DNA from: an uncultured Desulfobacteraceae bacterium
GTDB taxonomy: Bacteria > Desulfobacterota > Desulfobacteria > Desulfobacterales > UBA5852
Reading direction: 5' to 3'
Assembly: GCA_913060875.1 (NCBI GenBank)
Contig: CAJXSL010000020.1
Span: forward strand, 1 to 64,000
DNA: 64,000 nucleotides
Each line of letters begins with the position of its first letter. The first letter of the stretch is position 1. The position numbers were made by a program, and so were the translations under genes. Positions 46,647 through 51,826 of the stretch are shown here, one piece after another. The notes under the pieces are model-generated. The model was not told the DNA's origin. It saw only the letters and a list, made by a program, of their open reading frames with translations, and made no database searches.

Positions 46647-47555
46647 ATGACAGCCAAGCTGATCAAGGGGACCGAGATCCGCGAGCAAATCCTCGAGGAA
46701 ATCACGGCCGAAGTCGCTGAAATTAAGGAAAAACATGGTGTTGTGCCCGGTTTGGTGACCATTCTGGTAGGAGAGAATCCAGCGTCCATCTCCTATGTTA
46801 CACTGAAAATAAAAACAGCCCATCGGGTCGGTTTCAAAGAAATTCAGGATACCCAACCGGTGGACATCTCCGAAGAAGATCTCTTGGCTTTGATCGACAA
46901 ATACAACAAAGACGATTCCATCAATGGCATTCTCGTCCAGTTGCCCCTTCCCAAGCATGTCGATGAGAAAAAGGTGCTCAATGCCATCGATCCTGACAAG
47001 GATGTGGACGGTTTCCACCCGGTCAACGTTGGGCGTCTGATGATCGGCGGCAAAGAAGTCAAATTTCCGCCCTGTACGCCGGCGGGTATTCAGGAAATGA
47101 TTGTACGGGCTGGGGTGGATACCAAAGGGGCGGAAGTTGTCGTGGTTGGCCGCTCCAACATTGTGGGAAAACCTATTGCCAACATGATGCTCCAGAAGGG
47201 CGAAGGGGCGAACTCCACCGTCACAATCGTGCATACCGGCACAAAAGATCTAAAGGCCCATTGCCAGCGTGCCGATATATTGATTGTCGCAGCGGGCGTA
47301 CCGGGCTTGGTCAAACCGGAGTGGATCAAACCGGGGGCATGCGTCATCGATGTGGGTGTGAATCGGGTTGGTGAAAAAATCAGCGAGAAAACCGGCAAGA
47401 AAATTGCCATTCTCCAAGGCGATGTGGATTTCGATGCCGCCAAGGAAATTGCCGGTTCGATTACCCCGGTACCGGGCGGAGTTGGTCCCATGACCATCAC
47501 CATGCTGATGAAAAACACATTAAAAAGCTTGAAATTTAAGCTGGGATTGATGTAG
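46647..47555 (+). CDS. folD: Bifunctional methylene-THF dehydrogenase / methenyl-THF cyclohydrolase
   Basis: A 302-residue FolD with the substrate-binding Tyr/Lys region SISYVTLKIKTAHRVGF, the GILVQLPLPKHV signature and DKDVDGFHPVNVGRL. The NADP-binding GRSNIVGKPIANMML and the C-terminal PVPGGVGPMTITMLMKNT also fit. It interconverts 5,10-methylene-THF and 10-formyl-THF, both for purine synthesis and, in many sulfate reducers, for the Wood-Ljungdahl C1 pathway. AAAGGAG lies 6 nt before the ATG. A hairpin directly follows the stop, and then a riboswitch for the next gene. Confidence 0.95.
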   Translation: MTAKLIKGTEIREQILEEITAEVAEIKEKHGVVPGLVTILVGENPASISYVTLKIKTAHRVGFKEIQDTQPVDISEEDLLALIDKYNKDDSINGILVQLPLPKHVDEKKVLNAIDPDKDVDGFHPVNVGRLMIGGKEVKFPPCTPAGIQEMIVRAGVDTKGAEVVVVGRSNIVGKPIANMMLQKGEGANSTVTIVHTGTKDLKAHCQRADILIVAAGVPGLVKPEWIKPGACVIDVGVNRVGEKISEKTGKKIAILQGDVDFDAAKEIAGSITPVPGGVGPMTITMLMKNTLKSLKFKLGLM

Positions 47556-47559
47556 TATT

Positions 47560-47603
47560 GTCATTATCGGAAATCCGCAATGGTTTCGGGGTCCGATAGT
47601 GAC
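47560..47603 (+). terminator. Hairpin after folD
   Basis: GTCATTATCGGA (47560-47571) pairs with TCCGATAGTGAC (47592-47603), 12 positions with one G-T wobble. It starts 4 nt after the folD stop codon. No T tract follows, so it may protect the folD mRNA end or separate it from the riboswitch transcript, and need not be a true terminator. Confidence 0.45.
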
Positions 47604-47723
47604 ATTGAAACGTTACCATTGAGGTATAACCACGAAAAGGCAAACCCGCTGAAAAACGGGGACGCACAGCCACGGGTCTAAAGCTGAGAGGCCAGGACAG
47701 CCGGGTCACCGAAGGTTTCAATG
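47603..47723 (+). ncRNA. Cyclic di-GMP-I riboswitch aptamer (GEMM-I)
   Basis: The conserved GEMM-I core is present: AAGGCAAACC (47637-47646), a stem with a GAAA tetraloop, GGGGACGCACAGCC (47658-47671), the receptor side GGGTCTAAAGC and the closing AGCCGGGTCACCGAAGG (47699-47715). CATTGAAAC (47603-47611) is exactly complementary to GTTTCAATG (47715-47723) and extends P1. At the position equivalent to G20 of the Vibrio Vc2 aptamer the base is G, which favours cyclic di-GMP over the cyclic AMP-GMP bound by Geobacter-type variants with A. It lies upstream of a terminator and an M23 peptidase gene. Confidence 0.9.
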
Positions 47724-47725
47724 AC

Positions 47726-47763
47726 AACGCCTTCGGGGTGCAAGCGCCGAGGGCGTTTTTTTT
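47726..47763 (+). terminator. Riboswitch-controlled intrinsic terminator
   Basis: AACGCCTTCGG (47726-47736) pairs with CCGAGGGCGTT (47747-47757), 11 bp with one wobble, followed by a run of eight T (47756-47763). The aptamer end CACCGAAGG (47707-47715) can pair instead with CCTTCGGGGTG (47730-47740), forming an antiterminator. The design predicts that ligand binding frees the terminator and switches the downstream gene off. Confidence 0.88.
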
Positions 47764-47990
47764 AACGCCACGTGACCTGAAAGATTCGATGACGACCGAT
47801 GGCGACGAGCGGTACCATTAGGCGTTCAAAGAGGCTGCCGTAGACATCTTGACAGCCGGGGCTGTAAATGGCATCATACTTAAATTATACAGAATACCCG
47901 AATGTGTCCGGTAGCCCGATAAACCTGAACAGGCCCGTCGATGCTGGCAGATCGACCGGGCAAATCGACTGAGAATGTGGCAGGGTGATC

Positions 47991-48917
47991 ATGCGAAACA
48001 GAATTACATTCATTCTCCTTAGTGGCAATGGGTCACGTATCCGCCAGTTTTCTTCGAGTAAACTGGCCCTGGCAGCAGGCGCTGTGCTCAGTATCGCCGT
48101 TTTGACAGGGATCGGATGGCTGGTTCAGGACTATTTGAGCCTGAAAAATACAGCCGCCCAAGTGGCCGTGCTCAATGACAAGGTGACATCCCGGGATGCT
48201 GAGATTGTCCACCAGAAGCGTCAGATTGAATGTTTTGCAAATGAAATCAATCAGCTTAAAATGAATCTGGTTGCGTTGGATTCGTTTGAAAAGAAGATTC
48301 GTGTGATTGCGAATCTCGAAAAAGCTGCGGAGGAGGACAACCTCTTCGGTGTCGGCGGTGCCACACCTGAGGACTTGGACACAGGCTTACTCTTGCGGCG
48401 CGACCAATCCGATCTGATTCGGTCGATGCATGACCAGATCGAACAACTCGAGGGGGCGTCGTTCAATCAGGAGCAGGATTTTTCATCGCTATTGGGGCAG
48501 TTGAAAGAAAAGAAGAACCTGCTGGCCTGCACGCCGTCTATCCGCCCGGCCAAGGGGTGGATTTCATCGGGGTTCGGTTACCGGATTTCACCGTTTACCG
48601 GACGAAGGGAACTCCACGCCGCCTTTGACATTGCCAACCGTGAAGGAAGTCCCATTATTGCCCCGGCCAATGGCGTCGTGACCTACGCCAAAAAGAAGGG
48701 GCTTTACGGCAATCTGCTGATTATTGATCACGGCTACGGTCTCGTTACGCGCTATGGCCACCTAAAAAGTTTTGAAGTCAAGCGAGGGGCAAAGGTCAAA
48801 AGAGGCGATGTTGTTGCCAAAATGGGCAATACAGGGCGCAGCACCGGTCCGCATGTCCATTACGAGGTCCGTTTGAACGGCGTGCCCGTGAGCCCTGAAA
48901 AATACATTCTCAACTAA
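47991..48917 (+). CDS. M23 family metallopeptidase (murein endopeptidase-like)
   Basis: The protein has about 308 residues. An N-terminal membrane anchor or uncleaved signal (LALAAGAVLSIAVLTGIGWLV, about residues 24-44) is followed by a coiled-coil region (about 50-170) and a C-terminal LytM/peptidase-M23 domain. In that domain HAAFDIANREGSPIIA gives the HxxxD zinc motif and TGPHVHYEVRL the HxH motif. It probably cleaves peptidoglycan cross-links or activates amidases in the periplasm. ATG at 47991 is preferred over a GTG at 47985. About 230 nt of leader carry the c-di-GMP riboswitch and terminator. secA follows. Confidence 0.9.
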   Translation: MRNRITFILLSGNGSRIRQFSSSKLALAAGAVLSIAVLTGIGWLVQDYLSLKNTAAQVAVLNDKVTSRDAEIVHQKRQIECFANEINQLKMNLVALDSFEKKIRVIANLEKAAEEDNLFGVGGATPEDLDTGLLLRRDQSDLIRSMHDQIEQLEGASFNQEQDFSSLLGQLKEKKNLLACTPSIRPAKGWISSGFGYRISPFTGRRELHAAFDIANREGSPIIAPANGVVTYAKKKGLYGNLLIIDHGYGLVTRYGHLKSFEVKRGAKVKRGDVVAKMGNTGRSTGPHVHYEVRLNGVPVSPEKYILN

Positions 48918-48950
48918 AAAAAATCGTCGTAACAACGGGGTATGGCTCAT

Positions 48951-49002
48951 GCCGGATGGGGACGTAGGACCACCGCGCAAGGGAATGCCCCGTCGGCTTT
49001 TT
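48951..49002 (+). terminator. Intrinsic terminator after the M23 gene
   Basis: GCCGGATGGGG (48951-48961) pairs with CCCCGTCGGC (48988-48997), with one bulged base and one wobble, across a 26-nt loop. Five T follow (48998-49002). Confidence 0.5.
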
Positions 49003-49294
49003 AGGGGCCCGCATCGGTCCGATGACATCGTGTCGGGACCGGGGATCCTCCGCGCATGGCGCCCATCGTCAGCCCTTTCCTTACCTATGGTCATTCTTAG
49101 CAGCAATGCCATCATACCGGCGTAAGTATTATGTTGCGGCACCCCGTCAAAAGCGCGATGGTTGGCTAAACATTTCATCCGTTGATTGCGGCACCTTAAA
49201 CACCGTTGAGCGAGTTGACATCGTCCGGGGGGCAGAGTAAGGGAGTCAGCAACGGCAATGGCTTCGCCTCAACAGAAAGGAAACGCGTACCCTC
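49003..49294 (+). other. secA leader region
   Basis: About 290 nt without a convincing gene. TTGACA occurs at about 49217-49222, but the -10 at the expected distance is poor. No known RNA family is recognised. The region probably holds the secA promoter and leader. Confidence 0.35.
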
Positions 49295-51826
49295 ATGGTG
49301 GGACAGTTTTTAACCAAAATATTCGGTAGTCAGAACGAACGGATTCTCAAAAAAATGAATCCTGTGGTGGACCGCATCAATCAGTTGGAAGGCGGTCTCA
49401 AATCTCTTGATGACGATGCCCTGCGGGCCATTACCGGTGATTTGAAAAAGCGCTTCGCCAATGAGGAACCGCTGGATGATCTTTTGCCCGAGGCTTTTGC
49501 GCTTGTTCGGGAAGCCTCGGCCAGAACGCTAAACATGCGGCATTTCGACTGTCAGTTGATCGGCGGTATGGTTTTGCATGACGGCAAGATATCGGAAATG
49601 AAAACCGGTGAGGGTAAAACCCTTGTGGCAACACTGCCGGCCTACCTGAACGCTCTCACCGGGCGAGGGGTTCACGTGATTACCGTGAATGACTACCTGG
49701 CGCGCCGCGATGCCGAATGGATGGGGCAAATATACCGGTTTTTAGGCCTTGAGGTCGGCTGCATCGTGCACGGTCTCGATGACGCCGAACGCCAGGCCGC
49801 CTACGGCGCTGACATCACTTACGGCACCAACAACGAGTTCGGGTTCGATTACCTGCGCGACAACATGAAGTTTCAGAAGGACGGGCTTGTTCAGCGGGAA
49901 CTCCATTTTGCCATTGTGGACGAAGTGGACAGCATTTTGGTTGACGAAGCGCGGACGCCGTTGATTATTTCCGGACCGGCTGAGAAATCGACCCAGCTTT
50001 ACTACCATGTGAATGGCGTCATACCGCAGATGAAAAAGGAGGCGGACTTCACGATCGACGAGAAGGCCCGCAGCGTCTCCCTTACCGAAGAAGGGGTGGC
50101 GCATGCCGAAAGGCTGTTGAAGGTCGAAAACCTTTATGACCCCAAAAACATTGATTTGCTCCACCATGTCCAACAGGCATTGAAAGCGCATACCCTGTTC
50201 AAGCGGGACGTCGATTATATCGTCAAAAATGGTGAAGTCATTATCGTGGACGAATTCACCGGGCGGCTGATGCCGGGCCGGCGCTATAGTGAGGGGCTGC
50301 ACCAGGCCCTGGAAGCCAAAGAAAATGTGCGGATCGAAAATGAAAACCAGACCCTGGCCTCGATCACTTTCCAGAACTATTTCCGGATGTATGACAAACT
50401 TGCGGGAATGACCGGTACGGCCGATACCGAGGCTGCGGAATTCAAAAAAACGTACGACCTGGACGTGGTCGTTATTCCCACCAACCAACCCATGGTCCGT
50501 AAAGATTTCTCGGATGTCATCTATAAAACCCGCAAAGAGAAATTCGAGGCGGCCCTGGAAGAGATCATGGAATGCCACGCCAATGGCCAGCCGGTTCTGG
50601 TGGGGACGATTTCCATCGACGTGTCCGAGAGTTTCAGTAAAAAACTAAAAAAACGGGGTGTTCCTCATACCGTATTGAATGCCAAGAATCACGAAAAAGA
50701 GGCTGAAATCATTTCCCAGGCCGGGCAGAAGGGGGGGGTCACCATATCCACCAATATGGCCGGCCGCGGTACCGATATTGTCCTGGGGGAAGGCGTTACC
50801 GATCTTGGGGGGTTGCACATCATCGGAACAGAGCGGCATGAAAGCCGCCGGATCGACAACCAGCTGCGAGGGCGCTCCGGACGTCAGGGAGACCCGGGGT
50901 CGAGTCGCTTTTACCTGGCCCTGGAGGATGACTTGCTGCGCATTTTCGGCGGTGAGCGCATCACCTCCATCATGAACAAACTCGGCATGGAAGAGGGGGA
51001 GCCCATCGAGAATGCGCTTATTACCCGGGCGATCGAAAATGCCCAATCCAAGGTCGAAGGGCATAACTTCGAAATTCGAAAGCAGTTGCTGGAATACGAT
51101 GACGTCATGAACCAGCAGCGCGAGGTGATTTACCAGCAGCGCCGCGAGATCCTTACCGGTGAAGACCTGAGAGCCACCATCGAGACCATTATCAGTGAAA
51201 TGGCCGGCAATCTGGCGGCGGAATATGCGGACGAGCGTTCGCATCCCGAGGAATGGGGCTGGGACGGCCTGGGCGAACGCATCACCAAACAGTTCAACTT
51301 CCGTTTCGACACCCCGGATGCCGATACCCAGGATGGGTTGAATGCCGATGGGCTGGCCCAGTACATCGAAGATGCCGCTATTGCCGCTTACCGGTTGCGC
51401 GAGGCTACCATCGGGGCGGACAACATGCGCGCCCTTGAACGGCATATCATGCTGATGACCGTGGACAGCCTTTGGAAGGACCATCTCCTGAGCATGGATC
51501 ATCTCAAGGAGGGCATCGGCCTGCGCGGCTATGCCCAGCAGAACCCTCTCATCGTTTACAAGAAAGAGGGGTTTGAGATGTTTCAGGATATGATCGAGCG
51601 CATCAAGGAAGAAACCGTTGGGATTCTTTTCCGGGTTCAATTGGCCGAATCGGAACCGGTGGAACAACTGCGTCGGCCAACTGAGCAGAAGATGGTGTTT
51701 TCAGGTGGCGGCGACAGCCCACCCCCTAAAAAACAGCCCGTGCGCAAGTCCGATAAAAAAGTCGGCCGCAATGCCCCCTGTCCCTGTGGCAGTGGAAAGA
51801 AATACAAACATTGCTGCGGCCGCTAG
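49295..51826 (+). CDS. secA: Preprotein translocase ATPase SecA
   Basis: An 843-residue SecA. NBD1 has [14 protein letters not shown] (Walker A region) and [23 protein letters not shown] (DEAD-type Walker B). The peptide-crosslinking domain and NBD2 follow ([41 protein letters not shown]). The C-terminal zinc tail is [15 protein letters not shown]. It powers Sec-dependent export across the inner membrane and binds SecB through the zinc tail. The length is normal. The order M23 peptidase - secA is common in Desulfobacterota. Confidence 0.97.

Follow-up and report, generated by a model that had tools for sequence, protein, structure and literature searches.

Among the closest described systems, the class I c-di-GMP riboswitch Cd1 of Clostridioides difficile has been predicted to be a kinetic OFF switch (PMC9262584). 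The C. difficile prophage antitoxin riboswitches also belong to class I and have an additional promoter downstream (review PMC11477304). The pilM riboswitch of Geobacter metallireducens has the GEMM-I fold and controls transcription as an ON switch with cGAMP as its ligand (PMC9262584), and c-di-GMP riboswitches precede PEP-CTERM genes in Methylophaga GP59 (PMC12530212).

The stretch of 64,000 nucleotides analyzed here (hereafter, the window) belongs to contig C20; the genome measures 5.88 Mb, and its named relatives are MAGs of Desulfobacterales. Like Cd1, the window element comprises a GEMM-I aptamer, a separate terminator formed by arms T and H, and a predicted antiterminator in which the aptamer 3' strand (A) pairs with T. 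However, Cd1 controls flagellar genes in a Firmicute, whereas the window element adjoins an M23 peptidase gene between folD and secA and has a second promoter 3' of the terminator. The prophage systems share this downstream promoter, although their RNA is an antitoxin and the window RNA is a peptidase mRNA. The window copy resembles pilM in its fold and in its predicted transcriptional control but differs from it in having G20 and a terminator placed after the aptamer. In class and target type, the Methylophaga riboswitches match many other GEMM-I copies of this genome; the window copy, in contrast, has the canonical G21-C46 pair with an OFF layout.

We consider it likely that the element is a canonical c-di-GMP-I riboswitch acting as a transcriptional OFF switch before a conserved M23 gene, where ligand binding, switching, and the direction of switching are inferred. 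The assignment to a known kind of switch with a new target, the M23 peptidase, is well supported. A search of the openly accessible literature found no c-di-GMP riboswitch before an M23 peptidase. The element would provide a concrete link from c-di-GMP to a peptidoglycan peptidase in Desulfobacterales, kept over nine families.

Locus, aptamer, and terminator

The genes and the aptamer, all on the forward strand, are as follows.

46647 to 47555, + strand: folD, the neighbour 5' of the riboswitch, with the same synteny in relatives
47628 to 47717, + strand: c-di-GMP-I (GEMM-I) aptamer with an extended P1 (AACC/GGTT), from Rfam matches
47991 to 48917, + strand: M23 peptidase (PF01551, E 2e-33), with an alternative GTG start at 47985
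49295 to 51826, + strand: secA, the neighbour 3' of M23, with the same synteny in relatives

The original prediction of an M23 peptidase adjoining secA was thereby confirmed for both genes. By inspection, the M23 protein has an N-terminal membrane anchor and a coiled coil, and the PF01551 metal ligands HxxxD and HxH are present as HAAFD and HVH. As secA is set off from M23 by its own gap of 378 nt, switch control is supported for M23 and not for secA. Within this gap, at 48918-49010, an extended GC-rich inverted repeat with TTTTT behind it is a possible terminator that would separate both transcripts. In the window copy, the start of M23 is immediately preceded by a strong hairpin, GCCCGTCGAT...ATCGACCGGGC, at 47938-47968. 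The PilZ protein formerly placed in the window was absent from it; the genome has 17 PilZ matches, none of them on contig C20.

In the Rfam search of the 64 kb window, the sole RNA above gathering was the RF03167 (c-di-GMP-I-GGC) match at 47630-47714 on the + strand, with 66.6 bits and an E-value of 1.5e-13 in cmscan (gathering threshold of 59 bits). Its parent family, RF01051, matched 47629-47713 with 72.0 bits against a gathering threshold of 35 bits, which bore out the full GEMM-I core that had been predicted. An isrK match (E 3.3, 12.9 bits) was dismissed as chance. G20, A47, and C92 have been named as c-di-GMP contacts (PMC9049102, PMC11218506). With position numbers taken from a hand alignment to Vc2, the likely ligand-contact bases in the window are G20 at 47639, A47 at 47666, and C92 at 47709. 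The RF03167 consensus has G where the window has A47 (GGGACGCACAGCC); therefore, the window copy was filed under canonical c-di-GMP-I. Its ligand is almost certainly c-di-GMP.

The predicted expression platform consists of two further features.

47709 to 47715, + strand: switching strand A (CCGAAGG), the 3' strand of P1, which holds contact base C92; identical in six family members
47726 to 47763, + strand: intrinsic terminator, whose 5' arm T (CGCCTTCGGG, 47728-47737) can also pair with strand A as an antiterminator

The terminator stem-loop AACGCCTTCGGGGTGCAAGCGCCGAGGGCGTT (47726-47757), with a tract of eight T at 47756-47763, has a folding energy of -22.5 kcal/mol. The expected strong terminator was found, although not 3 nt after the aptamer: 10 nt separate its start from position 47715. 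Arm T (CGCCUUCGGG) pairs with arm H and with strand A, and CACCGAAGG (47707-47715) forms seven contiguous Watson-Crick pairs (CCGAAGG/CCTTCGG) with CCTTCGGGGTG. A 7-nt match was reached in 217 of 20000 shuffled arms (about 1%; range 0.7-1.8%). Since shuffling yields such a match in only 1-2% of cases for any one genome, the weight of the argument lies in its conservation. Neither A nor T differs among the six genomes of the window's family, whereas the A-T linker, the terminator loop, and H vary, the last mostly through changes keeping G-U pairs. The proposed complementarity between the aptamer 3' segment and the terminator 5' arm was therefore upheld, and the OFF architecture was supported by the separate T and H terminator after the aptamer, the A/T complementarity, and the Cd1-like layout. 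The U-tract is poor in three genomes (G003, G004, and G005). A conserved hairpin upstream was considered and rejected, as the leader folds differ from species to species.

In ligand-free folding with T emerged but not H, the probability of A:T pairing was 0.66-1.00 in the six genomes; once H had emerged, the probability of T:H pairing was 0.90-1.00. The equilibrium favoured the terminator (-20 to -24 kcal/mol) over the antiterminator (-10 to -12 kcal/mol) in all six, and the element could accordingly be a constitutive terminator. With a terminator roughly twice as stable as the antiterminator, OFF switching must be kinetic. In the proposed mechanism, bound c-di-GMP would hold strand A in P1, so that T would pair with H and RNA polymerase would terminate at about 47763. 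With the ligand absent, A, together with contact base C92, would pair with T as T emerges, which would delay the terminator and permit read-through into M23. By analogy, the A/T strand logic is the same as that of the Cd1 OFF switch (PMC9262584).

Three other explanations bear on the ligand, the terminator, and the direction of switching. It is very unlikely that the ligand is 3',3'-cGAMP or that the element is a c-di-GMP-I-GGC variant with an altered ligand. That explanation draws on the best cmscan E-value, which went to RF03167, the 'GGC' variant model, and on Geobacter, a desulfobacterial relative that uses GEMM-Ib for cGAMP (PMC8835794). However, the name 'GGC' appears to refer to the G at position 47, as read off the Rfam consensus, and the window has A there. 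The G20A change linked to cGAMP (PMC6274999), which characterizes GEMM-Ib, is likewise absent, with G at 47639, and the RF01051 score is high. Moreover, Hypr cGAMP synthases are marked by Ser in the GGDEF domain (PMC6456294); from 23 GGDEF-domain matches in the genome, about 15 were readable by regex, and all of these have Asp (GH..GD) and none the Hypr Ser. A plain folD terminator that matches the aptamer by chance is similarly hard to credit. The shuffling frequency is not negligible for one genome, but the match is perfect in six genomes although the linker and terminator loop diverge, and the pair of GEMM-I and terminator recurs before M23 in nine families. We give slightly less credence still to an ON switch in which the ligand prevents the terminator. 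Elsewhere in this genome, many GEMM-I copies use the aptamer's own P3/P1 3' strand as the terminator 5' arm, an ON-like layout that is the design of pilM (PMC9262584); in the window, however, the whole terminator lies 3' of the aptamer, and it is H, not T, that A duplicates.

Promoters upstream and downstream of the terminator

Promoters were recognised as consensus matches, and two candidates flank the aptamer and terminator.

47529 to 47558, + strand: candidate weak upstream promoter TTGAAA-18-TAGTAT in the 3' end of folD, with 9 of 12 consensus matches
47849 to 47877, + strand: internal promoter TTGACA-17-(TG)CATCAT, 3' of the terminator, conserved in five of five genus members

The upstream TTGAAA is present in all five genus members but is also coding sequence, and 14 of 200 shuffles score equally well. 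The internal promoter, a candidate riboswitch-independent start for M23, has an exact TTGACA and a TG-extended -10 (sigma70-like) at -141 to -145 in each of the five. Thus, the upstream promoter is weak in the window's family, and the downstream one bypasses the switch, which would govern only transcripts starting upstream. The original prediction that high c-di-GMP stops expression of M23 consequently gave way to a weaker effect: in this genome, c-di-GMP should lower and modulate M23 transcription rather than abolish it.

It is quite possible, though not the reading we prefer, that the riboswitch is physiologically minor here, with M23 driven by the 47849-47877 promoter and the element mainly cutting folD read-through. 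Besides the conserved internal promoter itself, 19 of 24 loci from outside the window's family have a TTGACA no more than 250 nt from M23, where 7% would be expected; two of these 24 loci were later shown to carry GEMM-I. The C. difficile prophage antitoxin RNAs offer a precedent, with a stronger promoter downstream of the riboswitch (PMC11477304). On the other hand, the window's family has conserved the aptamer core together with strands A and T, whereas a useless element would decay, and ten relatives do not have any downstream TTGACA.

Conservation before M23 across Desulfobacterales

The order-wide survey comprised 291 genomes, from which 80 upstream stretches were fetched, and used a covariance model; families carry anonymous labels (f1, f8, etc.). 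GEMM-I was found 5' of M23 in 29 of the 121 order-wide M23 loci, belonging to nine of 41 families, and these 29 include four weak or truncated matches (L172, L177, L182, and L189). All M23 loci had the element in f1 (6/6), f8 (7/7), f29 (6/6), and f57 (4/4), and the gene order folD-GEMM-M23-secA was observed in most of the loci that extended far enough to show it. As a result, M23 as the riboswitch target was supported beyond this genome. A regex result that confined GEMM-I before M23 to the window's family was overturned by Rfam and the covariance model.

Outside the window's family (f1), an exact TTGACA lies 40-71 nt 5' of the aptamer in all 22 intact copies. A second TTGACA between the terminator and M23 is present in 12 of them and absent from the other ten, in which M23 is thus probably switch-dependent. 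In the f8 and f71 relatives, the sole TTGACA found is upstream of the aptamer, and control of M23 there is probably complete.

Strand A does not pair with T in most other families, so the window-type antiterminator is not conserved order-wide. In most of these families, T instead matches P2 (5' strand and GAAA loop), with individual shuffle p mostly 0.002-0.03, and the T-P2 pairing is predicted in most folds. A permutation test of the partner swap between lineages was not significant (p 0.1-0.6), which leaves T-P2 rewiring as a hypothesis only. Tentatively, and with more doubt than confidence, GEMM-I may have controlled a single M23 peptidase beside secA in Desulfobacterales since early on, passed down by vertical descent, and its platform may have been rewired from T-P2 to T-A, the window's family having lost the T-P2 match, with the aptamer, target, and OFF logic unchanged. 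If the antiterminator swap is real, the orthologues would form a natural series for platform change with the target kept.

A GTDB contig scan for the A plus T pattern resulted in 49 matches, 17 of which were checked with Rfam. Among these 17, GEMM-I overlaps the pattern in five family relatives and five Synergistales loci, one Nitrospirae GEMM-I match is borderline (35.5 bits), and most of the remaining matches look like unrelated inverted repeats. In the Synergistales loci (L088, L093, L110, L112, and L116), GEMM-I aptamers occur in tandem, and the first of them has the CCGAAGG/CCTTCGG OFF layout. The gene 3' of these tandem aptamers is conserved, encodes about 310 aa with a CTLWGAAGEK motif, and is C45/Ntn-hydrolase-like by eye.

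Other GEMM-I copies in the genome

The sequence search of the genome returned 18-19 GEMM-I elements. In most of them, the 21-46 pair is flipped from G-C to C-G, and the window copy and L001 keep G-C with a terminator after the aptamer. The flipped pair (GCCAAACC...GGGACGGAAAGCC) defines a large subgroup, L002-L019 and L125-L140, in which both sides have changed together.

About half of the GEMM-I copies precede proteins with PEP-CTERM-like tails. On contigs C1, C4, C8, C13, and C25 of G000, GEMM-I lies 5' of secreted PEP-CTERM-like (VPEPSTIVLMGLGLVGLAG) genes (L004, L005, L007, L010, L011, L013, L015, L017, and L019). Contig C25 carries a head-to-tail GEMM-I array, and in several copies on these five contigs, the terminator is ON-like and overlaps the 3' strand of the aptamer. 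From these layouts, the same signal may raise surface proteins (ON) and lower a wall peptidase (OFF) in one genome.

The second canonical GEMM-I (L001 at G000:C1:764589, L119, L121, and L124) was considered as the same A/T switch and rejected, as it has no clean A/T complementarity. It lies 5' of a short conserved gene (MEMYVVQEKKE...); upstream of it are a murJ-like gene in G003 and G004 and an FtsB-like reading frame in G000.
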